Source: Prostheceraeus crozeri
Lineage: Eukaryota > Platyhelminthes > Polycladida > Euryleptidae
Length of the DNA stretch: 64,000 nucleotides
Reading direction: 5' to 3'
Assembly (NCBI GenBank): GCA_907163375.1
Contig: CAJQUW010016158.1
Location: 186,001 to 250,000 of the forward strand
Each line of letters opens with the position of its first letter. Within the stretch, counting starts at the first letter, position 1. Below, in pieces: positions 28,355 through 50,387 of this stretch. A model generated the notes under the pieces. That model ran no database searches, was not told the DNA's origin, and was given only the letters and a program-made list of their open reading frames with translations. The translations under genes were made by a program, and so were the position numbers.

Positions 28355-28360
28355 GACGAC

Positions 28361-30197: not shown

Positions 30198-30361
30198 CTT
30201 GATGTTATTGTCCAATGAGGATCATCATCCAATGAGAATCAAGCATTTCTGTATAAATAGCGAGCCTTCCACAGTGAGAATCATTCCATCGTTGAATCAT
30301 ACGAGTGACGGACGCACATTTTCTCTCTCTCTCTAGTTCCCTGTTCTATTATCCAACTAAA
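30198..30361 (+). promoter_or_regulatory. Left early promoter (CCAAT, TATA, shared 24-bp block)
   Basis: Two CCAAT boxes (gtccaatgagg, catccaatgag near 30212-30230), a TATA box gtataaatag (30251-30260) and the block gaatcatacgagtgacggacgcac (30294-30317) precede the ATG at 30362 by 45 bp. A pyrimidine-rich tract tctctctctctc follows the block. The same order and block recur on the minus strand before PolB at 46475-46640. The block could be an initiator or downstream core element; that is inference. Confidence 0.75.
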
Positions 30362-31118
30362 ATGGTAAGTCGCTATTGAACGTAAACTTAATACAATCTT
30401 TTTTCATTTTCAGGCATCTACTCCATCTGCTGCACTAGTAGGACAAAATGGCGGTCAAACGATACAAGGTTCGCTACGATCAGATCATCTACAACTGAGG
30501 CCAGTGGAAGAAACATCCAAGGTACATAATCCTACACCGCTACAGCGTAAATTTAAACAAGCCTTGCGTTATGACGATCATAGCGTAGTACTCCAAACGG
30601 GAATGCTCCCTTCCACGGATGTCAAGATAATGCACAATCAGTATGGGGACTACATACTGATCCCCGTGAGTCCGTACATTCGCCACCAACTTGATATTAT
30701 TGAGGAGTACGTGACATTAAATATGGACATTCCTACTCCTCTTGCTCAAGAGTGGAAGGCGAGAGATGACAAGGATACTCCCTATAGAAAGATTTGGGAT
30801 GGTAATCACATTTGCCTACCGGTATCACATTGGTGTACTTACTATAAGAAGGATGGAGATCAGTCAATACCCATCACATGCGACGAGCTCGGAGAAGGTA
30901 CTTGGGATATCCTTTTCAAAGTGAATGGGCTATATTATGGTCGACACAAAGATAATAAAATAGCCTCTCTCTCCATGCATATGGAATCCATCCTATATAT
31001 TCCGAAACCACCCAACGTGGACGACATAATTGATCAAATCCTTAACAGCAGTGGTACGAAGCGCAAGTCGGAGAAGAATGCTACATCAAAACGCAAATCA
31101 AAGAAGGAGAATTACTAG
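30362..31118 (+). CDS. Polinton early protein, possibly ssDNA-binding, with ATG micro-exon
   Basis: The first exon is only the ATG (30362-30364) followed by gtaagt. The second starts after ttttcag at 30414 (ASTPSAALV...), giving 235 residues. There are no database-grade motifs. The body is a mixed alpha/beta domain (LPSTDVKIMHNQYGDYILIP, GTWDILFKVNGLYYGRHK). The lysine-rich tail KRKSEKNATSKRKSKK looks like a nuclear localisation or nucleic-acid-binding tail. The strand pattern ending in SLSMHMESILYIPKP recalls OB-fold single-stranded DNA-binding proteins, but this is a guess from pattern and position next to the early promoter. It is the first gene of the rightward early unit. Confidence 0.7.
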
Positions 31119-31152
31119 TCCTTTCCTAACTCTACCCTATGACAATTCGCTT

Positions 31153-31278
31153 ATGTGCTTTGAGTGTCGTAGACGTGGTCTTATTAGATACATTTTACTT
31201 CTTCGTTGCCATCATATCATTTGTGTATTTTGTCGTGAAAAGCATCGATGTAATTCTTCATTTTGTAATATGTTATAG
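31153..31278 (+). CDS. Small RING-type zinc-binding protein (41 aa)
   Basis: A tiny frame with the spacing C-x2-C-x(n)-C-x-H-x2-C-x2-C-x(n)-C-x(n)-C (CFEC, RCHHIICVFC, HRC, FC), a minimal C3HC4 RING layout. The frame is open upstream to an ATG at 31078, overlapping the preceding gene by 41 bp; either start is possible. RING proteins act as ubiquitin ligases; no substrate can be suggested. A second, larger RING protein is encoded at 32362-32685. Confidence 0.55.
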   Translation: MCFECRRRGLIRYILLLRCHHIICVFCREKHRCNSSFCNML

Positions 31279-31312
31279 AACGTTTCCTTAGATGTGTAAA
31301 TTTCCGTTTTAG

Positions 31313-31861
31313 GCTTCTATCATCATTTTTATGGATTGTGAGGGTGAACCTGTACAGGAGCTCAGTGCTATTGCTATGAACAATTGGACATATCAGATTG
31401 TTAGTGTCTATCATCATCATGCCAACTGCGATCCCAATGTTGATCAATGGGCGAGAAAACACATTCATGGACTTAATCTGAAATATTTGCAAGACTATGG
31501 CTTTTCTTGTGAAAGTGCTCTTCTTATTGACTTTAAACGATGGTTAGCTGCTTTCAATGTTATACGCATCTTTTGTAATAATCCTGGTAAGGAGAGGAAA
31601 GTATTTCCCAATCTAATCATTGATGATATTTTGCTCCCACCTTGGGATAGTAGAGTGAATCAACATTATCATGAAGTTACGAAACGTTTTAAGGATTTGT
31701 GTGTTCCTATTTTGTCTGTTCGTTGTAGTAGCTACGTTCATAACCAATGCTTCTTTCCTCCTTACCTCAACACTGCCAAAGTCCTGTATGGTTATCATTG
31801 CTCGCTGTATGATAGTTATCAGCTGTATCTATTTTATCTCTTTCAAACCATTGATTTATAA
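31313..31861 (+). CDS. DnaQ-like DEDDh 3'-5' exonuclease
   Basis: From the splice acceptor tttccgttttag the frame reads ASIIIF then MDCEGEPVQELS. This is the first strand and D-x-E motif of DEDD exonucleases. HIHGLNL follows, as in many family members, then FCNN/ERK as a possible second acidic motif, and finally YHCSLYDSY, the H-x4-D box that defines the DEDDh group. Counting from the in-frame ATG at 31331: Asp2, Glu4, His156, Asp161. Starting at 31331 would remove the hydrophobic strand before the motif, so in-frame splicing of the 30362 ATG micro-exon to 31313 is the better model. An AATAAA lies at 31884. It could proofread or trim DNA ends for the element's polymerase; the role is inference. 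Confidence 0.7.
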   Translation, partial: ASIIIFMDCEGEPVQELSAIAMNNWTYQIVSVYHHHANCDPNVDQWARKHIHGLNLKYLQDYGFSCESALLIDFKRWLAAFNVIRIFCNNPGKERKVFPNLIIDDILLPPWDSRVNQHYHEVTKRFKDLCVPILSVRCSSYVHNQCFFPPYLNTAKVLYGYHCSLYDSYQLYLFYLFQTIDL

Positions 31862-31948
31862 TGCATGCTTGTTACCGTTATTCAATAAATGTTACTATGA
31901 GAAGAGTTGTTGTTTTCATGCAATGGATGGGTTAGTTAAAGGGCGATC

Positions 31949-32359
31949 ATGTCTTTCTCAAACGACTGCGGAACATTACGTTTTCATAGGCAAAGTTTAA
32001 AAGGAGCTGTTCAAGATTATGTGATAAATTTTCATAAAGATGAGACCGACATCGAAGCAGTGGTCGATGATGCTAGCACTCTATTTCTAGAGTTAATGAA
32101 TACATTCTCTGATAGCATTGTCATGGCGCGATTAGTTGCGAAAATTAAGTTTAGTCATTTTGGAAAGGAAGAGGTGGAAAGTCGCTCTTTCCATTTTGCT
32201 TCTTATTCAATGGAAGTGGTAGATCACCCCGAAGAATTTTTTAAAAGACATATGATAAAAATTGCTGAACGTCTTAACGCATTTAACCATCATGGTAGCA
32301 GTCTAGTGATTGAAGCGATTTCAGATATTCACATTCAACTTTCCATAAAGAAAAATTGA
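31949..32359 (+). CDS. Stand-alone PolB N-terminal-domain paralogue
   Basis: A 136-residue protein whose second half aligns by eye with the region after the zinc fingers of the element's own PolB. Compare FHFASYSMEVVDHPEEFFKR, IAERLNAFNHHGSSLVIEAI here with FHIPSSPATEVVDYESWIN, LNIDKFNERDSGLIFDGI in PolB. It lacks zinc fingers and all catalytic motifs. It may bind the same partner or DNA site as the polymerase N-terminus, or act as an assembly factor. It begins with a normal ATG 63 bp after the previous poly(A) signal and ends 2 bp before the next gene's ATG. Confidence 0.65.
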   Translation: MSFSNDCGTLRFHRQSLKGAVQDYVINFHKDETDIEAVVDDASTLFLELMNTFSDSIVMARLVAKIKFSHFGKEEVESRSFHFASYSMEVVDHPEEFFKRHMIKIAERLNAFNHHGSSLVIEAISDIHIQLSIKKN

Positions 32360-32361
32360 AA

Positions 32362-32685
32362 ATGCAGTGGTACTTGATTGTAGCACAACTGGTTTTCGAG
32401 CTATGTCTGCTCACTCTCGAAGTATATTCCTTCTGTACATGCGTCTATTATTTAGAAAAGGCTAGCAAATTCATATCTTCAAAAAGACTTGCTATAGACA
32501 TCAGTAACGGTGAAACTATGTGTTGCGATGTATGTAAGCGAAAGGATGGAAATGAAAAGCGCATCTTCAAGAGATGTAAGCATGCTTTTTGTCAACGCTG
32601 TTTCATACGTAATTGCATTCAACTTTGCCAATGTAACCACTGTGACATTGCTCATTTCGAGTGTCACTTATGTTGCAATAGTTAG
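32362..32685 (+). CDS. Membrane-anchored RING-type protein
   Basis: 107 residues. The N-terminal 30 or so are a hydrophobic helix (WYLIVAQLVFELCLLTLEVY) suited to membrane anchoring. The C-terminal half is cysteine-rich in RING order: CCDVC, then RCKHAFCQRC, CIQLCQC and CNHC, HLCC. The C-x-H-x2-C-x2-C core is clear. Membrane RING proteins in other viruses commonly ubiquitinate host membrane proteins, but nothing here shows the target. Preceded by the PolB-N paralogue with 2 bp spacing, suggesting co-transcription. Confidence 0.6.
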   Translation: MQWYLIVAQLVFELCLLTLEVYSFCTCVYYLEKASKFISSKRLAIDISNGETMCCDVCKRKDGNEKRIFKRCKHAFCQRCFIRNCIQLCQCNHCDIAHFECHLCCNS

Positions 32686-32690
32686 TACCT

Positions 32691-32697
32691 ATGCAAA
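32691..32697 (+). promoter_or_regulatory. ATGCAAA putative late promoter motif
   Basis: The motif sits 46 bp before the ATG of the basic protein at 32737, in context cctATGCAAAtgtgg. It is one of six copies found 23-46 bp before Polinton genes. Copies tend to be followed by (T/G)GTTG or similar. It overlaps the octamer recognised by POU factors, but a viral-style core promoter is equally possible. Confidence 0.5.
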
Positions 32698-32736
32698 TGT
32701 GGTAAAGATAGGTTTTAGCAAAGACTAACACGGAAA

Positions 32737-33093
32737 ATGGCGAAACGTAAAATGACGAAACGTAAAAGTCAAAAGTTTTCTTCAGCCATTCAAGCTCTCC
32801 GACGAATGAAAGCAAATCAGCGATACAATGCTATACGACATGCTAACGATAAATTCATTTGTGAAATTATTTCTCATGTGAGGAAGTTGAGGACGAAGAA
32901 ATTAGCGCCAAAACAACGAAAGTTACTTAAGCGATATGCTACGAAATTGCGTTTCATCTCCAATCCTAAAGTCGCCCTTCAAAGAAAGAGGAAAACTCTA
33001 ACACAAAAGGGCGGTTTCCTTTCAGCAATACTTCCAATGATAGCTCCTGCCGTGGGCAACCTATTGGGAAATATCTTTGGCTCTAAGCGTTAA
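32737..33093 (+). CDS. Small basic Polinton protein with hydrophobic C-terminus
   Basis: 118 residues, very rich in Lys and Arg (MAKRKMTKRKSQK, RKLRTKKLAPKQRKLLKRY). A helical middle is followed by a glycine-flanked hydrophobic segment GGFLSAILPMIAPAVGNLLG near the end. Proteins of this build, a basic helical body plus amphipathic or hydrophobic tail, recur next to the ATPase gene in Mavericks and may be condensing or membrane-active virion components. Function is unproven. Confidence 0.65.
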   Translation: MAKRKMTKRKSQKFSSAIQALRRMKANQRYNAIRHANDKFICEIISHVRKLRTKKLAPKQRKLLKRYATKLRFISNPKVALQRKRKTLTQKGGFLSAILPMIAPAVGNLLGNIFGSKR

Positions 33094-33095
33094 TT

Positions 33096-33102
33096 ATGCA
33101 AA
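33096..33102 (+). promoter_or_regulatory. ATGCAAA motif before the ATPase gene
   Basis: Context aattATGCAAAtgttgag, 29 bp before the ATG at 33125 and directly after the stop of the basic protein. Confidence 0.5.
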
Positions 33103-33124
33103 TGTTGAGTCTCAAAGTAATAAA

Positions 33125-33742
33125 ATGGATTTCAGACTTCAATGTGATAAAGTTCTGACTGTATCAGGTCCATCTCATGCAGGTAAAACTGTTTTCACGC
33201 TGAATTTATTGGATAAAAGAAGGGAGTTGTTTAAGGAAGCTATCAATCGAGTGATTTGGTGCTATGGTATTTATCAACCGTCGCTGTTTCAGGAATTGCA
33301 AAGTCGCAACTTTATTAGACATGAAGGAATTATTCCAGTGGATAAACTTCAGTCTAATGATGTTGTTGTATTGGATGATTTATTAAAAGAAAGTAAGAAT
33401 TCAAAAGATGTTACAGATATGTTCACTCGCGCAGCACACCATAAAAGGTGTTTTATCATCTATATTACACAAAATTTGTTTCCTGATGGAAAAGAAGCTC
33501 GTACACGAAACCTGAATACACACTATTATGCTATTTTCAAGAATCCGCGAGATAAAAGTCAATTTGAAATTTTAGCGCGACAAGTTGCACCCAGAGGATC
33601 AAAAGCCTTAATTGAAATTTTTCAAGCAGCTACTGAAAAACCATACGGTTACTTATTCATTGACTTTACGCAAGAGTGTCCGGAAGAATTTAGATTTCGA
33701 AGTGATATTTTGAAAACTCCCATGATTATCTACAAACTATGA
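33125..33742 (+). CDS. Genome-packaging ATPase (FtsK/HerA, A32-like)
   Basis: 205 residues. The Walker A motif GPSHAGKT falls about 15 residues from the start and the Walker B motif VVVLDDLL is near residue 80. A sensor-like IIYITQNLF lies after Walker B, where the family usually has a polar residue following a beta strand. Compact single-domain ATPases of this size drive DNA packaging in Polintons, adenovirus-like and related elements. Start chosen at the first ATG; the frame is open 16 codons upstream but without ATG. The stop overlaps the next gene's ATG (ATGA). Confidence 0.92.
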   Translation: MDFRLQCDKVLTVSGPSHAGKTVFTLNLLDKRRELFKEAINRVIWCYGIYQPSLFQELQSRNFIRHEGIIPVDKLQSNDVVVLDDLLKESKNSKDVTDMFTRAAHHKRCFIIYITQNLFPDGKEARTRNLNTHYYAIFKNPRDKSQFEILARQVAPRGSKALIEIFQAATEKPYGYLFIDFTQECPEEFRFRSDILKTPMIIYKL

Positions 33743-34431
33743 GTTCTTATTCTCGCATGATTGTTATTCCTCAGGATGAATATGTACAAATGACTGCCAT
33801 GCAGCAAGTAAAGCAACCTCTTGCAAATCAAATGTATAGGAAAGAAATAGATTATCAGCAAAATGTTCACATCAAAGATCCACATCGTGCTGTATTATTA
33901 CAATCGGAAACTGTTGAGCAATTGAAAAACTTGAAGAATAAGATGCGTGACTCTGTATCGACTGCTACACCTTTAGCATCTCGCGCACATGCCATATCTC
34001 TTTTCAACAGTATTGAACCCCATCTCAATGTAAATGATAGAGGAGAAATCATTACAGATAAAAATAAAGTGATTGATGCTTCACGTTATGAAGACTTGAT
34101 TCAGTATGCAACACGTAGAAAGCGCCGTCAGGGCTATGTTCCACCTGGTTGGTCATACTTTCTTAAACTATTGAAAAAGCATAATGTGCCAAAATTTGCT
34201 TTAAATAATGAGACATTGAAAGAACTTGATTCAACAGTGGCTACTACTCCAATGCTTCAGGCGATGAAAATGCCAACAAATTGGTTTAAGACGTCACCTG
34301 CTACATCCCCTCCCACACTCACTAAGCAAACAAGAGGAAGAACTCGACGTAGATCTACATCGCCACTAAAACTGGTAAAAGGAAAACGTAAAACAGCTCC
34401 TCCTAGGAAATACATGTTCTCAGACTATTAA
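33739..34431 (+). CDS. Polinton conserved protein of unknown function (PY-like)
   Basis: 230 residues beginning MSSYSRMIVIPQDEYVQM, with a conserved-looking VIPQDEY motif, a coiled-coil-prone middle (SETVEQLKNLKNKMRD), a GWSYFLKLLKKHNVP segment, and a very basic Ser/Thr-Pro-rich tail (TRGRTRRRSTSPLK). Proteins with the same I-P-x-x-E-Y start follow the ATPase in many Mavericks. Translation is coupled to the ATPase stop. Likely a structural or DNA-associated protein; I cannot go further. Confidence 0.7.
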   Translation: MSSYSRMIVIPQDEYVQMTAMQQVKQPLANQMYRKEIDYQQNVHIKDPHRAVLLQSETVEQLKNLKNKMRDSVSTATPLASRAHAISLFNSIEPHLNVNDRGEIITDKNKVIDASRYEDLIQYATRRKRRQGYVPPGWSYFLKLLKKHNVPKFALNNETLKELDSTVATTPMLQAMKMPTNWFKTSPATSPPTLTKQTRGRTRRRSTSPLKLVKGKRKTAPPRKYMFSDY

Positions 34432-34432
34432 T

Positions 34433-34648
34433 ATGAAGCAGATGTGTTGCTTGCCATGTAATCAGCCGCCAGAGGTGAATGTCGTTGTCACTTGCACTTG
34501 CTGCGCCAGCTCTCATAATGAAACCCCTAAGCAATGTGAACACGATCGCAAAACCGCTAAAGCTAAATGCTGCAGTTGTTGTAAATGTAGAAAGGCAAGA
34601 AAACAAAAAGATGAGAAGGAGGAAAAAGAGTCAGCCGTCATCGACTGA
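34433..34648 (+). CDS. Cys-rich small protein overlapping the integrase start
   Basis: 71 residues with many cysteine pairs (CCLPC, CTCC, CCSCCKC) and a charged lysine/glutamate tail. It starts one base after the previous stop. It overlaps the 5' part of the integrase frame in a different register. The cysteine density suggests metal binding. It could be a real overlapping gene or a chance frame; the tight spacing favours a gene. Confidence 0.45.
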   Translation: MKQMCCLPCNQPPEVNVVVTCTCCASSHNETPKQCEHDRKTAKAKCCSCCKCRKARKQKDEKEEKESAVID

Positions 34649-35699
34649 ACGTTTGAAGTCAATCTATTATGATGTAAAACATCCGGCAGGATTTGCATCT
34701 ATCAAGAAATTATCAAAAGCGAGTGGTCTTCCACAATCACAAGTGAAACGATGGTTAAAGGGTCAGGCTACCTATACACTCCACAAACAAGCGAAAAAGA
34801 AGTACCGCACCCGCCATTATATTGTTCATGACATCGATGAACAGTGGCAAGCAGATTTGTGCGATGTTGCCTCCATTTCAAAACATAACTCGGGCAATAA
34901 TTTTATTTTAACCGTCATTGATATTTTCTCGCGTTATGCGTGGGCTCAACCTTTAAAAACTAAAGAAGGGAAAGGAGTAGCAAAAGCATTCCAAACAATT
35001 TTTCGAGAAGGTCGCATTCCAAAAAGAATTCAGAGTGATCAAGGAAAAGAGTTTGAAAATCAGCATGTGACAAGATTATTTGAGAGGCATGACATTGAGT
35101 TGTTTAGTGTAAAGAGCGCTTATAAAGCTGCACTCGTTGAACGTTTTAATCGCACATTAAAAAATCACTTGTGGCGACATTTTACTGCCAACTTGACACA
35201 AAATTGGACAAAGGTTCTACAAGATACACTCCATGCCTACAATCACTCTATCCATCGTTCTATTGGACTCAGACCAGTAGATGTAAATGCTGACAATGTA
35301 GATAAAGTGCGCGAATCATTCCAACGTAAACGCACTCATGTGAAAAGTGATGTGAAAATTGGCGATAAAGTTCGTATCTCAAAAGTGAAAAGTGTTTTTG
35401 CTAAAGGGTACCTTCCGAATTGGACAGAGGAGGTATTTACAGTATCAAGGATTAATCAAAAAGACTCTCCGACCACCTACAAGTTGAAAGATTACGATAA
35501 TGAAGAAATTGAGGGTAGCTTTTACCGCGATGAGATTGAGGTAGTCACTGAAAGTGAAACATATTTGGTAGAGAAAATCATTCGATGTAAAAAACGGCAA
35601 GGTGAAGAATGGTGTCTTGTTAAATGGACTGGTTATCCTTCAAGTATGAACTCTTGGATGCGTCGTGCCGACATCTTTCATCTAAGTGATCGACAGTGA
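34518..35699 (+). CDS. Polinton integrase with chromodomain
   Basis: About 393 residues from the ATG at 34518; a second ATG at 34611 avoids most of the overlap with the Cys-rich frame. Layout: a helix-turn-helix-like N-terminus (ASIKKLSKASGLPQSQVKRW), the retroviral-type catalytic core with first Asp in WQADLCDV, second in IQSDQGKEFE and Glu in ALVERFNRTLK, then a basic beta domain, and a C-terminal chromodomain (YLVEKIIRCKK ... EWCLVKWTGYP). All three catalytic residues are present. The enzyme would insert the element with a 6-bp duplication, as seen at its ends. The chromodomain may steer integration to methylated histone tails. Confidence 0.93.
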   Translation: MKPLSNVNTIAKPLKLNAAVVVNVERQENKKMRRRKKSQPSSTERLKSIYYDVKHPAGFASIKKLSKASGLPQSQVKRWLKGQATYTLHKQAKKKYRTRHYIVHDIDEQWQADLCDVASISKHNSGNNFILTVIDIFSRYAWAQPLKTKEGKGVAKAFQTIFREGRIPKRIQSDQGKEFENQHVTRLFERHDIELFSVKSAYKAALVERFNRTLKNHLWRHFTANLTQNWTKVLQDTLHAYNHSIHRSIGLRPVDVNADNVDKVRESFQRKRTHVKSDVKIGDKVRISKVKSVFAKGYLPNWTEEVFTVSRINQKDSPTTYKLKDYDNEEIEGSFYRDEIEVVTESETYLVEKIIRCKKRQGEEWCLVKWTGYPSSMNSWMRRADIFHLSDRQ

Positions 35700-35702
35700 T
35701 TC

Positions 35703-35709
35703 ATGCAAA
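35703..35709 (+). promoter_or_regulatory. ATGCAAA motif before the pVI/pX-like gene
   Basis: Context attcATGCAAAgttgtaactaa, 38 bp before the ATG at 35741 and just after the integrase stop. Confidence 0.5.
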
Positions 35710-35740
35710 GTTGTAACTAACAATGTTTAGGGTTTGAGCT

Positions 35741-36196
35741 ATGAATCCAACTGCCTCATTTTATTCACGACCCTCCTATGTAAGTGGCGGAGGACAAATT
35801 TACATCGGTGCTCGCCGCCAACGTGGAGGTAGCATACTTGGTGCACTGAAATCTGTTGTAGCACCTCTCATATCCAATGTCGGTAGATCTTTAAAACGAA
35901 ATGTTTTAAGTAATGCCGTTGGCTTTGCTGGTGATGTTGCTAGTGATCTTTCCAGAGGTAGAAGTTTTAAGAGCAGTTTGTTGAATCGTGGGAAGGAACG
36001 CGGTTTAAAAACATTGAAGCAGACCTTTGCTGGTGTTACTCAAGGAAAGAAATCACCTAAACGAATGAATAAAGGAAGGAGGAAACATCGCGGAGCTGGT
36101 AAGGTGCGATCTTCAGTCAAAAGGCATTCACGCAAACGTCGCAGAGGCTCTAATCATTCATCAGGCGCTAAACGACGACGCTGCTATAACTTCTAA
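35741..36196 (+). CDS. Basic minor virion protein (adenoviral pVI/pX-like)
   Basis: 151 residues. The N-terminus carries a glycine-rich YIGARRQRGGSILGALKSV followed by an amphipathic helix stretch, then VGFAGDVASDLSRGRSFK, and an extremely basic C-terminal third (KRHSRKRRRGSNHSSGAKRRR). The order of R-Q-R-G-G, amphipathic helix and V-A-S-D-L is shared by Maverick proteins compared with membrane-lytic or DNA-condensing minor capsid proteins. It lies directly before the major capsid gene (3 bp gap). Confidence 0.7.
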   Translation: MNPTASFYSRPSYVSGGGQIYIGARRQRGGSILGALKSVVAPLISNVGRSLKRNVLSNAVGFAGDVASDLSRGRSFKSSLLNRGKERGLKTLKQTFAGVTQGKKSPKRMNKGRRKHRGAGKVRSSVKRHSRKRRRGSNHSSGAKRRRCYNF

Positions 36197-36198
36197 TC

Positions 36199-37476
36199 AT
36201 GGAGTGTAAAACTTCCGGTTTTTGTTTGTTCGATCAACAAGCCATACAGACAGATATTCTTAGTTCAAGTATTGTAGATTATCATCCTCGAACAGCTGAG
36301 AATGCTGACCCCATTGAATTTGTTATTCCTGGTGGTAGTGATGACTACATAGATTTGAGTTATGCGATGCTTGATTTGAGGTTTAGAATTCAGCAAGCAG
36401 ATGGAACTGCTATTGACGATGCACATAAAGTTGGACTGAACAATTTACCATTGACTACATTACTTCGTGATGTTTCTCTAACGATTGGAGAGCAGCAGGT
36501 GGAAGGTGGTCAAAGCGATTATCCCTATAAATCATATTTCAATCATGTATCACAGTTTCATCCAGCAGCACAAAAAAGTCATATGGAAGCCATGGGATGG
36601 TACAGAGATGAAGCAGGAAAATTTGATGTTGAAACAAACAGTGGCTTTGTAAAGCGATCTGCTATGATTAAAGATAGTAGAGTATGTCAGCTATATGGTC
36701 CGCTGAATTTAGACTTCTTTAGACAGTCAAAGTTTTTACTCTGTAATACCAGCATGCGACTCAAGCTGACATTGAATAAGCCTGAATTTGCGCTGAATGC
36801 ATTTGCTAAAGTTGACAATTTTAGAATTCATGTGGAAGATATTGCACTTTACATTCGTCGAGTAGTACCGAATCCAAGTGTCATTAGAGGGCATGCTGAA
36901 GGCCTTAACCGCCAAAATGCCATTTACCCCGTTCAGCATACAAAGCTTCTCACCTTTACAATTCCGAAAGATCAAAAGAGTTTCATGAAAGATGGCCTCT
37001 TTCCATCGGAAGCACCGAAGCTCCTCATGGTGGCAATGGTTGAAAATGATGCATTTAATGGTAATATAAAGAAGAATCCTTTCAATTTTAAACACAATCA
37101 GTTAAGTGAAATTGCTTTACGTGTAAATGGTGTGAGTCATCCTGGTCCACCCTACAAACCAGATTTTGCTTCGGATCAATTTATGCGCAGTTATGTTGAT
37201 TTTATGGATGTTTTTGGCTTTTACAATACGGATGACACCAACGGACTGACTATGAAAGAGTTTAAGAGTGGATATACTATTTATGCATTTGATTTGACTG
37301 CTGACAGCGATATTAGTGCACCCTATCGTCAAGCGAACGTGCCTCATAATATTCGTTTGGATTTGACGTTCAAAAGAACACTACCTGAGACGATCAATGT
37401 ATTAATTTATGCAGTCTTCGATTCAAATATTGAAATTACAAAGTATCGTGACGTGATTCTTCAGTATAATCGTTAA
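36199..37476 (+). CDS. Major capsid protein (double jelly-roll type)
   Basis: 425 residues. The N-terminal half has the pattern recurrent in Polinton capsid proteins: EFVIPGGSDDYIDLSYAML, then LLRDVSLTIGEQQVEGG and YPYKSYFNHV. The C-terminal half has GYTIYAFDLTADSDIS and IRLDLTFKRTLPETINVLIYAVFD, the typical end strands of the second jelly roll. The frame is intact. This family is often mislabelled as an uncharacterised F54H12.2-like protein. It overlaps the protease gene by one base (TAATG), so the two are probably co-expressed. No jelly-roll fold can be proved without modelling. Confidence 0.9.
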   Translation: MECKTSGFCLFDQQAIQTDILSSSIVDYHPRTAENADPIEFVIPGGSDDYIDLSYAMLDLRFRIQQADGTAIDDAHKVGLNNLPLTTLLRDVSLTIGEQQVEGGQSDYPYKSYFNHVSQFHPAAQKSHMEAMGWYRDEAGKFDVETNSGFVKRSAMIKDSRVCQLYGPLNLDFFRQSKFLLCNTSMRLKLTLNKPEFALNAFAKVDNFRIHVEDIALYIRRVVPNPSVIRGHAEGLNRQNAIYPVQHTKLLTFTIPKDQKSFMKDGLFPSEAPKLLMVAMVENDAFNGNIKKNPFNFKHNQLSEIALRVNGVSHPGPPYKPDFASDQFMRSYVDFMDVFGFYNTDDTNGLTMKEFKSGYTIYAFDLTADSDISAPYRQANVPHNIRLDLTFKRTLPETINVLIYAVFDSNIEITKYRDVILQYNR

Positions 37477-37937
37477 TGAGTTGGTTGACTGCTGACGATA
37501 TTAAGACTAAAGTGCAGCGTAATGCAGACGAAGCGACGTTGAAAGCTTTCGATAATGTCTATTCACTCGATACCTTACCACCTGCAGTAAATCACTATCC
37601 CATCTTTATTGTGCTAAACACTCATTCACAGAATTTAGGCGGTGAGCATTGGAAAGCGATCTTTATTGGAGAAGACCGACGTGGTGAACTATTTGACTCT
37701 CTTGCTCAACCTCCAAATATACCAACACAGCAGTGGTTGAGAAAACATACGCGTCAATATCAGCGAAATGAACGCATACTACAACATCCACTTTCATCAA
37801 CGTGTGGTGCTTTTGTACTGTACTTCATCTTAAGACGTTTACATGTATCTCGATTTGCATCTGTTATTCAAAACTTTTCATGTAATCCATCCTCTAATGA
37901 AAAAATGATTTGTAAGTTCTATCATGATTTGAAATAA
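37476..37937 (+). CDS. Adenain/Ulp1-type cysteine protease
   Basis: 153 residues. The catalytic His58 lies in GEHWKAIF, the acidic residue Asp74 in ELFDSL, and Cys110 in SSTCGAFVLYF, preceded by Gln103 (LQHPL) for the oxyanion hole. The spacing is that of adenoviral and Polinton maturation proteases. It would cleave virion precursors. The stop codon lies within AATAAA (37933-37938), the poly(A) signal of the rightward unit. Confidence 0.93.
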   Translation: MSWLTADDIKTKVQRNADEATLKAFDNVYSLDTLPPAVNHYPIFIVLNTHSQNLGGEHWKAIFIGEDRRGELFDSLAQPPNIPTQQWLRKHTRQYQRNERILQHPLSSTCGAFVLYFILRRLHVSRFASVIQNFSCNPSSNEKMICKFYHDLK

Positions 37938-37968
37938 AAACATCATGTTGGAAAAATTGTTTTTTATT
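37933..37968. terminator. Convergent poly(A) signals embedding both stop codons
   Basis: AATAAA at 37933-37938 on the plus strand contains the protease TAA. TTTATT at 37963-37968 is the minus-strand AATAAA and overlaps the stop (37964-37966) of the TBP-like gene. Two opposite transcripts end within 36 bp. Confidence 0.7.
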
Positions 37969-38509
37969 TTACAATCCGCTGGGTACGTACATACTCAATG
38001 AGATAGTCTAGGATCATATTTGCTTGTTCATGAGATTTTAGTCCAGTAATGATCACTTTACTATTATGAAAGATTGCAGCATGCACAGGTAACCAACAAC
38101 TAATGAGAGCTGCAGGAAAAAGTTCGGGTTCATAACACAAACTGTAACTGCTGGTACGAATCTTCAAAAATGATAGACTGTCACTCAATTGAGTAGAGAT
38201 CACCATATTATCCACAGTCAGATTCGACATCACACACCTCTCCCTCTTCCATATCCGACGTAGTAGTCTTTGTAGCTCTAAGCGCATTGACTGCGCCGAT
38301 GAATGAGAAAGGGCGCCGAGAATCTGTACAGTCCCATTTGGGAAGAGTTGAAGATTCCATGAATTGTTCATCTTCACCACTAACATTTGAGGACGGCCCG
38401 GGTAATACTTGCTGTTTGGAAGCTGTTGGTGTAATGTTGTGAGATCGATTTTGGTGTAGAGTCTGAAGCGACGGAGAATGTTGACGATGGTGTAGCGATG
38501 GCGCTTCAT
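37964..38509 (-). CDS. TBP-like protein (two saddle repeats)
   Basis: 181 residues from the ATG at 38509, the size of a TBP core. Two imperfect repeats are visible. Repeat 1 runs from YTIVNILRRF to LQRLL and includes YYPGRPQMLVVK and LFPNGTVQILG. Repeat 2 runs from NMVISTQL to EYVRT and includes CYEPELFPAALIS, AIFHNSKVIITGLKS and a final helix. The order Y-x-P-x-x-x-x-x-L, basic/aromatic strand, (I/L)F-x-N/S-x-x-V-x-(I)-x-G is that of each half of the TATA-binding-protein saddle. Repeat 2 is closest, with the E-P-E-L-F-P segment. The DNA-intercalating phenylalanine pairs are only partly recognisable. It overlaps the upstream PC4-like gene in another frame. A Polinton-specific transcription factor for its TATA promoters is the natural inference. 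Confidence 0.65.
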   Translation of the reverse strand: MKRHRYTIVNILRRFRLYTKIDLTTLHQQLPNSKYYPGRPQMLVVKMNNSWNLQLFPNGTVQILGALSHSSAQSMRLELQRLLRRIWKRERCVMSNLTVDNMVISTQLSDSLSFLKIRTSSYSLCYEPELFPAALISCWLPVHAAIFHNSKVIITGLKSHEQANMILDYLIEYVRTQRIVK

Positions 38510-38831
38510 GATGAAAGAATGAGTAAATTGAGCGATGTACCTTCCTTTTATACTTTTCCCAACTACCTTGATGAAATGTGAAGTTAGTATGAAGTTGGGA
38601 ATGATAGAGTTGAATTCGCCGATTGTTGACGCGCAGCCAGATGCGATTTCCAATACGTGAATGTCTTTTCATATAGAAGTATTTCAAGTCCTTCATGATA
38701 TGATGTAGAGATTGAAAATGACGATAAGATAAAGCAAACTCTCTTCTCACATTTCCAGTTGAATCTTTGAAATAGACGTTTCGATCATGATCCGTTTCAA
38801 TACGTTGTAGGGAATCTAATTTCCAACTCAT
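38208..38831 (-). CDS. PC4-like protein 1, with long acidic/Ser-rich tail
   Basis: 207 residues. The first 110 are a paralogue of the neighbouring gene at 38854-39210: W-x-LDSLQ-x-I, NV-x-FK-S-x-G-x-x-x-R, a-L-x-x-R-x-F-x-x-L-x-x-IM-DL-x-YF, WEKYxRxxHRSI. The strand-turn-strand, then R-x-x-x-L-x-x-x-x-F-x-x-L and a helix, resemble the PC4/Sub1 single-stranded DNA-binding domain, with a second half-repeat behind it. The tail (GEDEQFMESS, DMEEGEVCDVESDCG) overlaps the TBP-like frame on the same strand. The PC4 link is by pattern only. Confidence 0.5.
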   Translation of the reverse strand: MSWKLDSLQRIETDHDRNVYFKDSTGNVRREFALSYRHFQSLHHIMKDLKYFYMKRHSRIGNRIWLRVNNRRIQLYHSQLHTNFTFHQGSWEKYKRKVHRSIYSFFHHEAPSLHHRQHSPSLQTLHQNRSHNITPTASKQQVLPGPSSNVSGEDEQFMESSTLPKWDCTDSRRPFSFIGAVNALRATKTTTSDMEEGEVCDVESDCG

Positions 38832-38853
38832 GATGTGTGGTAGTCATGTCTGA

Positions 38854-39210
38854 TTAAGATTTGCATAGTAGGGCGATGAACTCACGACGAATAAATGTCA
38901 TGATGGAGCGATGTATGTATCTTCTATACTTCTCCCAATTGTAATTGCGAAATGAGAAACAGTTTGCGGAATGAGAATGGTAGATTTGAATTTCATTTCT
39001 GTAATGTTGAAGCCAAACTTGATCACCCAAGGAGATGAATCTTAATGTTTCAAAATATTCCAAATCTCTCATGATATCATTGAGGTTGACAAATTGTCGC
39101 CATGTTAATGTAATTCCTCTTGATGTATGACCATGAGAATTTTTGAAATGTACGTTTCCATCACGATCAACTCTGATATATTGTAGAGAGTCCAAAATCC
39201 AAGTCTTCAT
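38854..39210 (-). CDS. PC4-like protein 2 (tandem paralogue)
   Basis: 118 residues starting MKTWILDSLQ, homologous to the first half of PC4-like protein 1 along its whole length but without the acidic tail. GNVHFKNSHGHTSRGITLTWRQF is its closest match to the PC4 pattern (G-I-x-L-x-x-x-Q-x-x-x-L). A tandem duplication is the simplest origin. Its start lies 29 bp from the divergent gene at 39240, so both must share a very short promoter containing ATGCAAA/TTTGCAT. Confidence 0.5.
   Translation of the reverse strand: MKTWILDSLQYIRVDRDGNVHFKNSHGHTSRGITLTWRQFVNLNDIMRDLEYFETLRFISLGDQVWLQHYRNEIQIYHSHSANCFSFRNYNWEKYRRYIHRSIMTFIRREFIALLCKS
38860..38866 (-). promoter_or_regulatory. ATGCAAA motif before PC4-like gene 1
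   Basis: On the minus strand, context ctatgcaaatcttaatc, about 35 bp before the ATG at 38831. It is the only one of the six copies that faces left. Confidence 0.45.
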
Positions 39211-39216
39211 GATGTT

Positions 39217-39223
39217 ATGCAAA
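39217..39223 (+). promoter_or_regulatory. ATGCAAA motif in a 29-bp divergent promoter
   Basis: Context gttATGCAAAgttgcag, 23 bp before the plus-strand ATG at 39240 and 7 bp from the minus-strand ATG at 39210. Confidence 0.5.
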
Positions 39224-39239
39224 GTTGCAGATTAGCAAT

Positions 39240-40679
39240 ATGAAAATGTCGTTTTATCATATTTTGCTTAGCAATGCGGCTACAAAGAGATTTACTAGTA
39301 ATCGAGCCGCACTCTTTTCTACTCCCATTGATCATGCACAACAGCTAAATGGAAATTGGGAAGTGGGTGTCACTCAACTTGTTTATAGCAACTGTGTCTA
39401 TACTTTTGATCATGAGGTGATGACTATTAATATGAGGCGTACAGCTGCTTACCAATGTGAAAAGGGCTGCCGAGTATACATTCCACAGTGGCCAAAGAAA
39501 GATCTCTTATCATGTAAAAAGTTTATATATGATTTCCTGAATAAAGCGTGTAAACATATTGCCCAATTTACTCCGCACAATGATGATTATACTTATATAC
39601 ATCATGTAGTTGAGAAAGATTGGATTGTTGGTTTAAGTCCAAGTTTAAGAAATGATTTAGGCTACCTCGCTAGCGCCTTAACAAGCTATGATAATTTTAA
39701 CGTTAATTACCACATAAGTGGTCATAAACAGTTAATATATCGAGAGGAAGCTTATTATGTAGATCTTATTCCAAGAAATGAGAAGACGTTGGTGAAGAAG
39801 ATTGTGATTAAGCCAAGAAAGACAAACATGACTCCTGAAACATTATTGAAGAAATTTAATTATCTCCTTCGAGTTGATGGTAAACAAGTGGCAACATTGA
39901 CTTATATCAAATCATCTAATCATATTGCAATAAGCAAATTAAATGATGATGATCTAGTATTAGTTTGTTCAAAAGATTTTCATCAGTTCTTACGACATCG
40001 TTCTGCAGCTGTTCATGGAAAATCTGATATGCAACATTTACCATGTGAAAGGCCAAATCAATTTGATACAGAATGGGCCGTATCTTTATACAGAAAGTGT
40101 GTAGAGCCTTTTGGTGGTTTCTTACATGAAACAAGAGTGTTGATGCCTCGCATTATTACTTCGGTTAAATTGGTTGTAGATTATTTAAATGAAGTGATTA
40201 ATGAGCAACATATTTCATTTTCTGAAAAAGAAGGTACTTTGTCTCTCACTATAAGTGGAAAAGGTATTGAACTAATTATGGATAAAACTCTAATGGACAT
40301 TTTGGGTTTTGATCAAAATATCTTTAAAAGTGGTACTGTAACCAAAGCTAGCGCAGACATGTCACTATCGCGTCGTATTAACTATTTTCAGATATATTCC
40401 AATATTGGTGAAGATGTACGTGTGGGAGATGTTGAAGCTCCATTGCTAGCAATGATACCATACCAGCCAAAAAGCTGCAGTATTTTATCTGAGCATACTT
40501 TCAAGAAAGTGCATTATACAAAGCTGAAATCAAACTACATCCCACAAATTGATATTGCCATTTATGACGATGCTGGTGCGTTGATTCCTTTTCATAGATG
40601 CTGTAACAAGTATCACACTCCATTTCCGAATGAAGAGTTAATGCAAACGTATGCTAATATATTTTTCCAATGTGAATAA
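39240..40679 (+). CDS. Polinton conserved protein, minor-virion candidate, paralogue 1
   Basis: 479 residues starting MKMSFYHILLSNAATKRFTS. The opening resembles the Maverick pattern (F-x-x-x-L-x-S-x-A/N ... L-x-G-x-WEVG), with LNGNWEVGVTQLVYSN near residue 40. It shares this layout and several later blocks (P-x-x-L-G, VDLIP, DTEWAVSLY, MP-R-I, FSEKEGTL-L) with the following gene. The family is widespread in Mavericks, but its function is not established; a structural or spike-like virion protein is one possibility. Start chosen at the first ATG, which follows the ATGCAAA motif. Confidence 0.65.
   Translation: MKMSFYHILLSNAATKRFTSNRAALFSTPIDHAQQLNGNWEVGVTQLVYSNCVYTFDHEVMTINMRRTAAYQCEKGCRVYIPQWPKKDLLSCKKFIYDFLNKACKHIAQFTPHNDDYTYIHHVVEKDWIVGLSPSLRNDLGYLASALTSYDNFNVNYHISGHKQLIYREEAYYVDLIPRNEKTLVKKIVIKPRKTNMTPETLLKKFNYLLRVDGKQVATLTYIKSSNHIAISKLNDDDLVLVCSKDFHQFLRHRSAAVHGKSDMQHLPCERPNQFDTEWAVSLYRKCVEPFGGFLHETRVLMPRIITSVKLVVDYLNEVINEQHISFSEKEGTLSLTISGKGIELIMDKTLMDILGFDQNIFKSGTVTKASADMSLSRRINYFQIYSNIGEDVRVGDVEAPLLAMIPYQPKSCSILSEHTFKKVHYTKLKSNYIPQIDIAIYDDAGALIPFHRCCNKYHTPFPNEELMQTYANIFFQCE
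40641..40647 (+). promoter_or_regulatory. ATGCAAA motif before paralogue 2
   Basis: Context gttaATGCAAAcgtatgctaa, 40 bp before the ATG at 40681, inside the 3' end of the preceding gene. Confidence 0.45.
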
Positions 40680-40680
40680 T

Positions 40681-42201
40681 ATGGAAAGTGAAAATAAGGA
40701 CTCGTTTCTAATCGACTTGCCCAGTAATGCTTCTATGAATAAATTTCCCAAAAATAAACCATCAGACTATCGAGTAGAATTAAATCGGCCACTGCATTTA
40801 GAAGGTGAATGGGAGGTTGGTGTTTCTAGTATTTGCTATGATAGTAATATTCAGAATGTGAATGATTTGGAAGAAATGATATTGACTCCTCGCACCCATG
40901 ATGGAATAACGATGAATAATGCATTTCAGTTCCCATACAATTTAACATCAGATGGAAAGTGGAACTATGAATGGATTCAGATAAAATCAGATTCTTATGA
41001 ACCATTTGGGAATGAGAAAATTATTAAGGCATTCAACAGTGGTAATACTTCCATCATGAAGAATAAAAATCAGAAAGCTTATGAGTTTACTATCTATCGT
41101 TGGAGTGGGAGACAGTTCCTCCGCTTTCATTCTTTTACTAAAGGTCTTACGCTGAGGTTGGATAGTGAATTCTATCCACATCTTGGTTTTGGTCATGGAC
41201 TACATCTAACGTCAATTGCTACTGCAAATGTTAAAAAAGTTTATTCAAATCGAATCAACAAATTTCATTATAGATTTAAAATATTTGATGAAGATGTTGT
41301 AGAATGCGAAGAACGCATCATTTTGAAAAAGCGTGGTGTTCAACCTTTATCACTTATTGAGTTAGTAAAACGATGGAATGAGACTGTGGGTAAGAAGTAT
41401 GGAGAGAAAATTATGGCGAACAAAAATAAGTTGGTTATTCAGAAATATAATGACAAACTTACAGTTTATTTCTCTCCAACCTTGCGTCATTTTGTAAGAC
41501 ATTATACACCTATTATTGGAAGCGGTGTGGTGTATGGTTCTCATGAATATCACACTAAAGCTGATTCAGTTAATGATGAATGGTGGGTGGACATCTATGG
41601 CGATCGCATCAAGAAAATTTACCAGTCTTATGAAGAATCTAAAGTTGCTATCAATATAATGCCGCGTCTATATCATACAGTTGAAAGCTTCATTCATGTA
41701 GTAAATCCTTATATACAACAGAAGTTGAAGCATGTGATGAAAAGTAAATATGATGTAAAGACACACCACATTTCGTTTTCAATTGAAAATCAACGCGTTG
41801 TTCTGAGACTTGGTGATGACATTCAATGTCAATTGAGTAAAAATTTGAAAAAACTCTTTGGTTTTTCAATGCTACAAACTGTGTTTGCTGCTGCGCATAC
41901 GATTGGTATAGAAACACCAATGACACTTGATAAACATGAACAGCACCTTTACATTCAAAGTGATTTGATTCTACCTATTTCTGTTGGTGAGAAAAAAGAA
42001 TACATTTTACGTGATTTCATTCATGATAAAGACGCTTCATATGGAATAGTCGAGAAGATGTTTGAATCTATTTTCTATCATCCCGTCGTCAAACAAACTA
42101 TACCCTCTATTGCTATCAAAATTACCAATGGTTTACAAGAGTGCATCCATGTGAAAGATACTAAATCCCTCATAACGTTAGTGTTTCGGAAAACAAAGTG
42201 A
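40681..42201 (+). CDS. Polinton conserved protein, minor-virion candidate, paralogue 2
   Basis: 506 residues starting MESENKDSFLIDLPSNAS. It shows the full family signature: F-x-x-x-LPSNAS-x-x-x-x-P-x-N-x-x-x-x-Y, then L-x-GEWEVGVSSI-Y. Later blocks (DEWWVDIYGDRI, IMPRLYHTV, HISFSIENQRVVLRLG, LFGFS) match those of the preceding gene in order, so the two are tandem paralogues that have diverged strongly. An upstream in-frame ATG at 40651 would overlap the previous gene. The ATG at 40681 follows its stop by one base. Confidence 0.7.
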   Translation: MESENKDSFLIDLPSNASMNKFPKNKPSDYRVELNRPLHLEGEWEVGVSSICYDSNIQNVNDLEEMILTPRTHDGITMNNAFQFPYNLTSDGKWNYEWIQIKSDSYEPFGNEKIIKAFNSGNTSIMKNKNQKAYEFTIYRWSGRQFLRFHSFTKGLTLRLDSEFYPHLGFGHGLHLTSIATANVKKVYSNRINKFHYRFKIFDEDVVECEERIILKKRGVQPLSLIELVKRWNETVGKKYGEKIMANKNKLVIQKYNDKLTVYFSPTLRHFVRHYTPIIGSGVVYGSHEYHTKADSVNDEWWVDIYGDRIKKIYQSYEESKVAINIMPRLYHTVESFIHVVNPYIQQKLKHVMKSKYDVKTHHISFSIENQRVVLRLGDDIQCQLSKNLKKLFGFSMLQTVFAAAHTIGIETPMTLDKHEQHLYIQSDLILPISVGEKKEYILRDFIHDKDASYGIVEKMFESIFYHPVVKQTIPSIAIKITNGLQECIHVKDTKSLITLVFRKTK

Positions 42202-42506
42202 AGTCTTTATACAACATTTATTGAAATATGTATATGAATGTGAAGCAATAGACTTTATACAACATCCACTGAAAATATATACATGAGCGCACTTCAATAA
42301 ACATTGTTATATACAAAAAGTCTTTTTACTTCGTGAAGGGTGGAAATATACAGGGATAGGAAAAATGTCTTTCAGTGGAAAAGTCATCACATGGGGAATG
42401 TACAGATGTGGACACATATTCACAAGGAAAAAACAATCTCATGCGATACATAAAACAACAATGTTTATCTACAGAAATCAACATCAAAATACTAAGTTAA
42501 GGATGA
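42202..42506. terminator. Convergent 3' region with poly(A) signals
   Basis: AATAAA occurs on the plus strand near 42296 (cttcaataaacattg) and on the minus strand near 42219 (tttattgaa). It also holds a short direct repeat of ctttatacaacat. It separates the paralogue gene from the oppositely transcribed PolB. Confidence 0.55.
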
Positions 42507-45500
42507 TTATGCTAAGACGTCTCCTGAATGTGGTAGTGTGAGTTTAATTCTTTTGGGTGGTGGTATGTTTGTGTCAGGATGTCCATGTGGAAGAGATATG
42601 TTGTGTTCTAGCCAGCACCTCTTATCCTCCCATGCTGAAAGCGCCCGTTTCCTAAAAGTATGAGTTTTGATCTCATGCGACTTAGATTTTAGGATTGTCA
42701 TATTGACAAACGTTATATTTTTATTTCTATAGGCTTTCCTGAAATTTTTATGTTTCATATTTTGCACAATGGATTTTGATATGCCTTTAGCGCGCTTAAT
42801 GCTATCGTCGCTATCCTTTAATTTCATACTGTACATTTTTGGACGGAGGAGAATCATTTCAGCTATCTCCTTCCCTGCTGTCTCATCCTTAAAGCAGCCA
42901 AGTTTTGCCTTATTTTTGATGGAGTAGAGTGGATGATCAGCAGGATAATTTGATGTATCAAAATATATTTCTAAAGATTTTCCTACTTCATTGAAATTTA
43001 AATCTTTTTGAGTGGTAATACCTAAGAAGAAACTATCTGTATCACCACCCAACAAACGAACCTCTTTTACGAGAGGACATGGTTTTAGTATTTTATAAAA
43101 GAGTTGGTACATTTCAAGCTTAGAGTAATCTAGTACAGCTTGACCAATATGGGTTTGCACAACTCAACTTCAGATTTTATCATTTTAACACCTATAAGGT
43201 CCTCATCGATAATGTCTCTATCGATGAATAGAGGTGATGAGACCAATTTGTGATACTTTTGATCATCATTAACTAGTTTGTAGTTTACGCGCTTTCTAAC
43301 ATCCTCCATCGTCTTACCAAATAGACTGTTGTTCTTATATTTATAAAAATCTTTTTCAAAATTATTTTGGGCTAGTGCACGTTTCTGGCTGTTGCTATCA
43401 ATATATGGTTTGAGGAAGGCTTTCTGTCTAAATTTAATAATGCGGTGAACTCTTTTTAAAATCATACCCATTTCTAAATAAAATTTTAAGATGCTAAAGT
43501 GGACTAGATAGTTTTCTTTATCATACTGGGTGAGTAAAAGTTTGCGGCAAGGCTTATAGTCGGGTTGACCGCATGATTCTAAATCTTTATGAAATTGTTT
43601 CATAAAGTCGGAAAACATATCTTTGGTCACTTCACCTGATTCGGGTCCGAGTGGAAAATCCACGGTTTTATGTTTAATATTATTTGGATAGATTAGATCT
43701 ATCTCAAAATAATATCCCCAATCACCTTCATCTGGAATTGCTAGTATGTTGGAAGGGTTGGAGAAATGTTGAATTTCACTATCATCTAACCAGCTAAACT
43801 CAGAGTGAGGTAGCGGTTTGGATAATGAACTACCATACAAATTATTTTGGTCATAATACTTCAGATGAGTCTGGTCATTGCCTACTATTTTTGATTTTAA
43901 CCTATGTTTATTTACAAATGTGAGACCACCGCGAATTCCTCGCTCAAATAAATTATACATCTCTGGATCTTGTAAGAGATGAATGGTCTCACCAGTCATT
44001 TTAAAAGCAGACTTAAATGACATGGCTGGCAGACTGACAAAGTGGACGGGATCTAACTTATCTTCTTCTAATGCCACTCGTCGAAACTCCTGAAATACAT
44101 CAGCCAGCAAAAATACATCTAACTTAAGGTAGGCAATCATATATTCACCAAATGTATGGCAGTCAAATTTTATCCATGCATCTTGTGCATGATCATAATC
44201 TTCGGTCTTACATTCTGCACCGGTCAAATCATTTTTAAATTTATCTATGGGCGGAAGAGAAGTCTCGCCGAGTTTACTAATTGCATCAAAATATGCATAT
44301 GGAAAGACTCCTTTCCGTGTGATGACTTCATCGGTTAGATTTGGATATTGTTTCTTAAGATTTTGTGTTAGTGGAAGAGACTTTAGATTTTGCACGAGAG
44401 AGGCCAGTGATGCAGTCATAAATTGGTAGGAATCTAAAAATTTTATATCAAAATAGACCGTCTTATTTTCTTTAGTTTTATCGACAGGCACTTTTGCTGT
44501 CATGGCCATAAACTTCTCTCTCGTTTGCGCTATTACATCAAGCTTCCACTCTTTCATTTGACCTAAACCTCCTTTTATTATCATATGGCTGTCGTAGCCC
44601 TTGAAATTATGGAAAATGACGGGTAATGTACGCCGCTTCATCCTCAGCGAAAAATTACATTTTGAACAGAGTGCGTTTCTAAATTTACCAGTGATGTGAT
44701 CATGGTCGCGCACTTTCTTAATCTTATCATCGTCAAATGTTTTCCTACATTTGGGGCAAACGTTGCAACTATCAAATTTTGCTTGATCATCTGCTGTCAT
44801 ATGCAATGATCTGCGATAGAGTTCACCATCATACTTTTGTTGAAATTTTACAGCCTGTTCGAGGAATTGTAGGAATTGGTAAATACAATCCTCACCTTGC
44901 CAGACGCGCATTTTATTTTGCCTACTCCTAAAGTGATCATGCCATACTTCATAGCAGGAAATGGCTGCTGGTCGATGGATGTTATCATCGATATAGCATT
45001 CGATGTCAGCATAGATGACACGAAGAGGACTTAGTTCATCACCATTCTCTCTATATGAAAACTCCTTATCTTTGGGCATGCGTTCCATTTGCAGTTTACC
45101 TCGCTTACACCACTCATAATGAGTTTCAAATTTAGTTTTCCTCCTAAAGTGGCGAATACATCTGTCGCAGTAATATAACTCTCTACTAGAGTTTTCTAAG
45201 TGGTGGTATAAGCGAGAGATTTTGGGAATACCGCAGTAGTGCCATTCCTCACTATCATCCTGTTTTACTAATAACAGGTTTACTGTACGTTCATAACAAC
45301 TCGAACGCGAGTTGTAGCGCACACCCTTCAATCCTTTTTCCCAAACATGGAGAACTATTTTAATGTTGTTCAATTTTTCAAATTTTTCTATATCTTTAAT
45401 TTTCATATCGTCACTATTACAGTCATCGAAGTTTAATTCATTCTCCCACTGCCTATAGCTATATGTGCGATTTCGATTCGCATTGATGTCATTATAGTGG

Positions 45501-46474: not shown

Positions 46475-46640
46475 TTTAATGAAATATGATCAGACAGAAT
46501 AATAGTCAAAGAGAGAGATCGTGCGTTCGTCACTTGTATGATTCACAGATTAAATGAAATGATATGAATGTCACTTTGCTTATATACTTTCATTCTCTTC
46601 ATTCATTGGATGTTCATTCTGATTGGCTGCTTGTGTATAC
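46475..46640 (-). promoter_or_regulatory. Right early promoter (CCAAT, TATA, shared 24-bp block)
   Basis: On the minus strand: cagccaatcag and catccaatgaa (CCAAT), gtatataagc (TATA, about 46578-46587), and the block tgaatcatacaagtgacgaacgcac (46521-46545), 47 bp before the ATG. It differs from the left copy at two internal positions. A tctctctcttt tract follows, as on the left. Confidence 0.75.
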
Positions 46641-46699
46641 TTTAGAATTAGAAAAATGTTAAAGTTATCATTATTCAAAGTCAGCATTTCAAAGACAAC

Positions 46700-50381: not shown

Positions 50382-50387
50382 GACGAC

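Follow-up and report, generated by a model that had tools for sequence, protein, structure and literature searches.

Polintons of the flatworm Prostheceraeus crozeri carry a predicted homologue of the TATA-binding protein

INTRODUCTION

Animals possess a second, diverged TATA-binding protein (TBP), TRF2/TBPL1, with changed DNA contacts. The TBP fold is also encoded by DNA viruses, among them giant viruses, asfar-like viruses and mirusviruses, many of which encode their own RNA polymerase. For mirusviruses, TBP is reported in 59% of genomes (PMC10132985), and a green alga has putative mirusvirus-derived elements in which TBP genes were noted (PMC10675990). In herpesviruses, KSHV ORF24 is presented as a functional TBP mimic for late genes (PMC7498053) that works at TATTWAA promoters (PMC6541308). 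As these articles and PMC4922670 portray them, KSHV ORF24 and EBV BcRF1 are viral TBP-type proteins that serve a promoter class of their own via host RNA polymerase II (Pol II).

Here, we analyzed a 64,000-nucleotide stretch of the P. crozeri genome (the window), in which a Polinton contains an open reading frame (ORF) that, judged by its sequence and structure model, encodes a Polinton-specific TBP homologue. Like the herpesvirus proteins, it is a TBP-type protein of a virus-like element and would serve that element's own promoters through host Pol II. However, ORF24 binds the Pol II CTD through an N-terminal domain and acts with five other viral proteins, whereas the Polinton protein, compared with it by description, is a bare 181-aa core that matches the Pfam TBP family (PF00352, E=3.6e-21). 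It shares a virus-encoded TBP fold with giant viruses, asfar-like viruses and mirusviruses, although these viruses are far larger than a Polinton, and it resembles TRF2/TBPL1 in being a diverged TBP with changed DNA contacts. The titles and abstracts of the best-matching open-licence papers on Polinton, Maverick and adintovirus contained no report of a Polinton TBP, and a term search found neither TATA nor TBP in the main text of the 2014 Polinton capsid paper and the 2024 survey preprint.

RESULTS

The window contains a complete Polinton

The original prediction placed the TBP-like ORF in a Polinton, an attribution upheld by the termini, the 6-bp target-site duplication and the integrase, with weaker support from the other genes. 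The inverted repeats end in AGTAGTAAGG at 28361 and CCTTACTACT at 50381, and the sequence between these ends is a complete Polinton insertion (Table 1). The capsid and polymerase genes, the latter with presumed polymerase motifs, are putative assignments that rest in part on weak matches. Of 18 capsid relatives, one had a Pfam double-jelly-roll domain (E=0.0005); the window's own capsid protein had no such match and none among solved structures. Pfam gave no polymerase match for the polymerase gene (42507-46300), nor did solved structures for its first part, and the gene appears to be split by a frameshift in this copy, its two ORFs being in different frames. Since no RNA polymerase was seen among those Polinton ORFs that were scanned against Pfam, the element probably uses that of the host.

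Two parts of one transposase ORF, which we take to be of the pogo/Tigger-like DDE type, flank the Polinton (27841-28354 and 50388-51343, minus strand), and the Polinton appears to have inserted into this ORF, one mobile element nested in another. Within the Polinton, a Cys/His-rich stretch (32362-32685) had no Pfam match above cut-off and presumably resembles a RING-type zinc-binding domain. Elsewhere in the window, ORF 14714-15505 has the look of a C-type lectin, secreted and with an apple/PAN-like part at its N-terminus, and ORF 62006-63463 resembles a piggyBac-type transposase.

Table 1. Features of the Polinton, in window coordinates
Feature	Position	Strand	Remarks
Whole Polinton, 22,021 bp	28361..50381	.	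inverted terminal repeats of ~1.5-1.9 kb, holding internal repeats
Left target-site duplication GACGAC	28355..28360	.	
Right target-site duplication GACGAC	50382..50387	.	
Packaging ATPase	33125..33742	+	weak Pox_A32 match, E=0.022, below cut-off
RVE integrase with chromodomain	34479..35699	+	rve E=1e-10, chromodomain E=6.4e-07
Major capsid protein	36199..37476	+	putative, named by position
Cysteine protease	37476..37937	+	weak Ulp1 C48 / adenovirus C5 match, C48 E=0.001, below cut-off
TBP homologue (predicted), 181 aa	37964..38509	-	two saddle repeats, residues about 1-92 and 93-181
TBP repeat 1 / PUR2 tail overlap, 302 nt	38208..38509	-	PUR2 tail in +2 frame
PUR2, 207 aa	38208..38831	-	N-terminal part is a PUR1 paralogue; C-terminal tail of ~100 aa overlaps TBP out of frame
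PUR1, 118 aa	38854..39210	-	two predicted beta4-alpha repeats, PUR/PC4/Whirly fold
DNA polymerase gene, second part	42507..43112	-	PHROG DNA polymerase match, E=4.5e-4
DNA polymerase gene, first part	43130..46300	-	putative; zinc-finger and endonuclease VII matches
TATAAA	38547..38552	-	43 nt upstream of TBP start codon, inside PUR2 coding sequence
ATGCAAA	32691..32697	+	46 nt before ORF 32737
ATGCAAA	33096..33102	+	29 nt before ATPase ORF
ATGCAAA	35703..35709	+	38 nt before ORF 35741
ATGCAAA	38860..38866	-	35 nt before PUR2
ATGCAAA	39217..39223	+	23 nt before ORF 39240, between divergent starts
ATGCAAA	40641..40647	+	10 nt before ORF 40651

The ORF next to the protease gene encodes a predicted TBP

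The ORF was found exactly where it had been predicted, on the minus strand; it is convergent with the protease gene, 26 nt away. Its proposed TBP-like identity was borne out by the Pfam match, which falls in two stretches and scores 75.2 bits against a curated cut-off of 22.9. Searches of NCBIfam and of solved structures, like that of Pfam, ranked TBP first. We therefore rejected a chance ORF or resemblance on the strength of the Pfam E value. The two internal repeats proposed at the outset are real: a repeat-versus-repeat profile alignment gave E=8.5e-07 (probability 91.5) over 79 columns, and repeat 2 also aligned onto both repeats of Methanocaldococcus jannaschii TBP. The structure model, predicted at high confidence, displays a saddle of two alpha/beta repeats, and in a Foldseek search with it, ranks 1 to 44 were all TBP chains or TBP-containing entries. 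Identity to solved TBPs was 19-27%. Structure matches in BFVD, which include giant-virus and asfar-like (B263R) TBPs, had TM scores of 0.41-0.72 and, among the 50 matches listed, identities of 7-20%; several of the top rows, including the first, are unnamed.

The first-repeat DNA face is changed

We compared 34 sequences in human TBP numbering, taking F197, F214, F288 and F305 to be the intercalating phenylalanines, N167 and N257 the central asparagine pair, and E284 and E286 the contacts with TFIIB. Phenylalanine was present at positions 214, 288 and 305 in all 34 sequences, whereas F197 was replaced by proline in all 31 with a letter there, the three others being gaps in rows that begin later. 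Three of the four intercalating phenylalanines are thus kept, and the full set of a canonical TATA-binding TBP is absent. The asparagine pair was retained (N257 in 34/34, N167 in all 22 rows that have a letter there), no sequence departed from E284 or E286 (34/34 each), and T313 was found in 33 of the 34. On the DNA face of repeat 1, in contrast, L212 was changed to glutamine in 30/34, V220 to glutamine in 34/34 and T222 to leucine in 33/34.

The kept residues and the two-repeat saddle are what the Polinton protein has in common with cellular TBP (PF00352); the proline, glutamines and leucine of repeat 1 set it apart, as do its location in a mobile element and the overprinting of its first repeat by another gene. 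The proline at position 197 makes it doubtful that the protein binds a canonical TATA box. Taken together, the kept and changed residues indicate a canonical second-repeat, TFIIB-facing half and a rewritten first-repeat half, and this pattern suggests that the half-site preference may be changed.

The TBP gene is present in four Polinton families

In the host assembly (2.05 Gb, 14,165 contigs), the window TBP is present in at least 150 copies with 98-100% identity over residues 1-181, and 149 of the 150 scored copies lack an internal stop; the scored number is a lower bound, the first-look candidates amounting to 11,873. In the same genome, 150 places were scored in a search for the Pfam TBP domain; 4 of these were cellular, and the other 146 were taken as Polinton-type. 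Twenty of these 146 loci were hand-picked to span the open-frame classes, and 10 kb around each was analyzed. A capsid or polymerase gene was found within the same 10 kb in 20/20, and in 13 it was the capsid gene (nine of the window's class, three of family A and one of family B). Family A (3 loci; TBP 42-43% and capsid 51-54% identical to those of the window) preserves the window's gene order, and family B is the single degraded locus L051 (TBP 40%, capsid 53%). In family C (7 loci; TBP 28-55% by segment, polymerase 54-65% in the first-listed segments), the polymerase gene adjoins TBP and its PUR neighbor. Counting the window's own, four Polinton families in this genome carry TBP, family B by a single degraded locus. 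One family C locus, L061 (1-10000), holds TBP and polymerase segments in two opposite-facing copies about 6 kb apart.

Among about 5.8 billion proteins, a search yielded 33 further homologues (81-33% identity), all 33 with a PF00352 domain. The longest contig was equal for TBP P0008 and capsid P0125 (7106), for TBP P0002 and PUR1 P0036 (1771), for PUR1 P0035 and capsid P0040 (12876) and for PUR1 P0038 and capsid P0041 (11119); these matches were drawn from the best 120 of 260 capsid homologues, and the second TBP subclade (P0021-P0034) contributes none. The matching contigs suggest, short of proof since a single coincidence could be due to chance, a linkage of TBP, PUR1 and capsid genes beyond the host genome. 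Capsid P0041 (longest contig 11119 nt) is 86% identical to that of the window, and its NCBI name derives from a MAG labelled Pseudomonadota, a label that probably reflects contamination by an animal element.

Scans of a viral contig collection revealed no relative of the Polinton TBP and, with the capsid alignment, no capsid relative. The genome contig scan with TBP gave 25 loci, all archaeal (23 Lokiarchaeota/Lokiarchaeia/Prometheoarchaeum, one Harpocratesius and one named 'archaeon'), and no Polinton, while phage records contained a single halovirus TBP, in two records (E=0.01).

Repeat 1 of TBP is overprinted by a paralogue of its neighbor

Two genes, PUR1 and PUR2, lie upstream of TBP on its strand, the N-terminal part of PUR2 being 44% identical to PUR1. 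In the PUR1 model, two beta4-alpha repeats match the structure of PUR-alpha or PC4, and a PUR/PC4-type fold is predicted for this protein; Pfam, the solved-structure profile search and Foldseek alone returned neither PUR nor PC4 for it. By its sequence a paralogue of PUR1, PUR2 is taken as a PUR/PC4-type partner as well.

The +2 frame, in which the PUR2 tail is read, is open for 99 codons of the TBP ORF in the window, 118 in L047 (family A) and 112 in L055 (family C). Synonymous shuffles of the TBP ORF matched such open lengths in only 2, 1 and 1 of 5000, respectively. Two of the three pairs of overprinted tails were more alike than shuffled sequences (0/1000 each), and the likeness between the window and L047 was not above shuffles (150/1000); the tails have in common FSF..A..L and an acidic stretch with VC. 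Across 21 loci, the +2 frame stayed open to 299 nt or more beyond the TBP match start in 15 and broken within the overlap in 6 (L049, L050, L051, L057, L059 and L060; in L057, it was measured from a later start). Four of the 15 open loci (L046, L061, L063 and L064) have the frame cut upstream of TBP, and PUR2 of the window ends earlier than PUR2 of the nine sister copies compared. It is repeat 1 of TBP, with its rewritten DNA face, that the overlap covers, and dual coding may have contributed to that rewriting.

In the window and 15 distinct other copies of its own family, variable sites at codon positions 1/2/3 numbered 5/13/7 inside the overlap and 5/11/13 outside. Clear purifying selection was not seen in these counts, and Polinton copies seem to drift after insertion.

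Four of the seven loci of family C (L050, L055, L059 and L061) contain, next to TBP/PUR, a relative (21-22% identity) of the 171-aa ORF at 30603-31118, and this ORF may therefore form part of the gene set.

Polinton TBPs form a clade of their own

We built a tree of 40 Polinton and cellular sequences: 20 Polinton proteins (18 of the 34 described above plus L047 and L055), 16 archaeal and 4 eukaryotic ones, the latter including the TBP and TRF of the host. The Polinton proteins grouped together with support of 100/100, their clade sitting on a branch 2.12 changes per column long, and the eukaryotic TBP/TRF proteins grouped separately (100/99). With a midpoint root, a long Polinton branch and long branches meeting at the host TRF, the deeper placement of the Polinton clade is tentative, as is the precise position of that TRF.

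Of the cellular matches in the host, two are exons of a TBP (86% and 91% identity to the human protein) and two lie in one TRF-like gene (43%; L035 and L042, contig C3829). The Polinton TBP, diverged like TRF2/TBPL1, is separate from this host TRF-like gene, which groups with cellular TBPs in the tree. By eye, the TRF-like gene has Trp, His and Tyr at three of the intercalating-Phe sites of human TBP, replacements that we would expect of TRF2-type proteins. Given the separate clade with 100/100 support, capture of a host gene was rejected.

Candidate promoter motifs

According to the original prediction, the early promoters of the element carry TATA boxes. This was borne out in part: in the 100 bp preceding each of 17 ORFs, TATA[AT]A turned up a single time, before TBP and within PUR2. 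In 6/6 loci (window's class and families A and C), TATAAA precedes a TBP start by 43 or 46 nt, with a spacing that in the family A loci L047 and L049 fits the second TBP ATG only; its conservation is confounded because the box also codes for Tyr-Lys in PUR2.

A second word, ATGCAAA, occurs 8 times in 30300-48700, 6 times within 60 nt upstream of an ORF start (Table 1). When its placement was tested on the 24 ORFs of at least 90 aa in this interval, the best word in random ATG sets was equally extreme in 1/1000. Over the whole 64-kb window, TATGCAAA was not over-represented (7 found, 5.07 expected); only the placement is unusual. In family A, ATGCAAA marks other places, its matches in L047 not being upstream of the ORFs listed there, and the nearest analogue, TTAAGCAA, picked post hoc, occurs twice in 10 kb, both times 38-39 nt before an ORF. 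We thus regard ATGCAAA as a family-specific candidate promoter element with a putative link to TBP.

DISCUSSION

The Polinton TBP is a further case of a virus-encoded TBP, real and well conserved, and we infer that it acts as a dedicated transcription factor. There is a good chance, in our judgment, that together with its PUR-type neighbors it forms the element's own initiation machinery, TBP probably being the initiation factor. In the mechanism that we propose, host TBP would read a canonical TATA box and so drive early expression of the element's TBP gene. The product of this gene would then bind the changed core promoters of the element, the normal second repeat contacting one half and the rewritten first repeat the other, while its C-terminal stirrup, as the residues suggest, would recruit host TFIIB and Pol II. 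PUR1 and its paralogue PUR2 may help to open or hold promoter DNA. As an outcome, the capsid-side genes would obtain a promoter class unused by the host. The full scheme is a more tentative proposal: promoter recognition made by the element itself, in which a re-specified TBP and two PUR/PC4-type partners would bring host TFIIB and Pol II to element-only promoters (here, of the ATGCAAA type), with a switch from early, host-TATA to late, element-TBP transcription.

A TFIIB-binding decoy, which would damp host transcription by sequestering TFIIB or competing with host TBP, would also agree with the loss of F197, the changed DNA face of repeat 1 and the invariance of E284/E286. We nevertheless consider it unlikely, as three of the four intercalating phenylalanines and the central asparagine pair are kept. 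Moreover, a pure decoy has no need of a conserved DNA face, yet the changed residues are nearly invariant, and the predicted PUR/PC4 fold of a neighbor points to activity on promoter DNA.

Somewhat less probable still is a DNA-bending protein without a role in transcription, which would act at, for example, the terminal repeats during replication or integration. TBP does bend DNA, and its gene adjoins the polymerase gene in family C; however, such a function gives no reason for invariant TFIIB-contact residues, and in the window's class and family A TBP is found among the capsid-side genes. Recent capture of a host TBP or TRF gene, or chance resemblance, is very improbable despite the fold and Pfam family shared with cellular TBP, since the Polinton proteins are far from solved TBPs whereas the host exons are close to human TBP and even the TRF-like gene reaches 43%, since they form their own clade on a long branch, and since the Pfam E value excludes chance.

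To our knowledge, the timing of capsid and replication gene expression in Polintons is an open question. If the element-initiated transcription proposed here does rely on a dedicated TBP, Polintons would control their own promoters on a borrowed host polymerase, as herpesviruses and giant viruses control theirs. Such a factor would provide a direct handle on Polinton promoters and a marker for finding such elements, and it invites the question how virus-like elements acquired a deep branch of TBP. The PUR/PC4-type partner, encoded in part over TBP, would be an unexpected component, and in the overprinted repeat, the joint effect of two reading frames on a DNA-binding surface could be studied in a natural setting.
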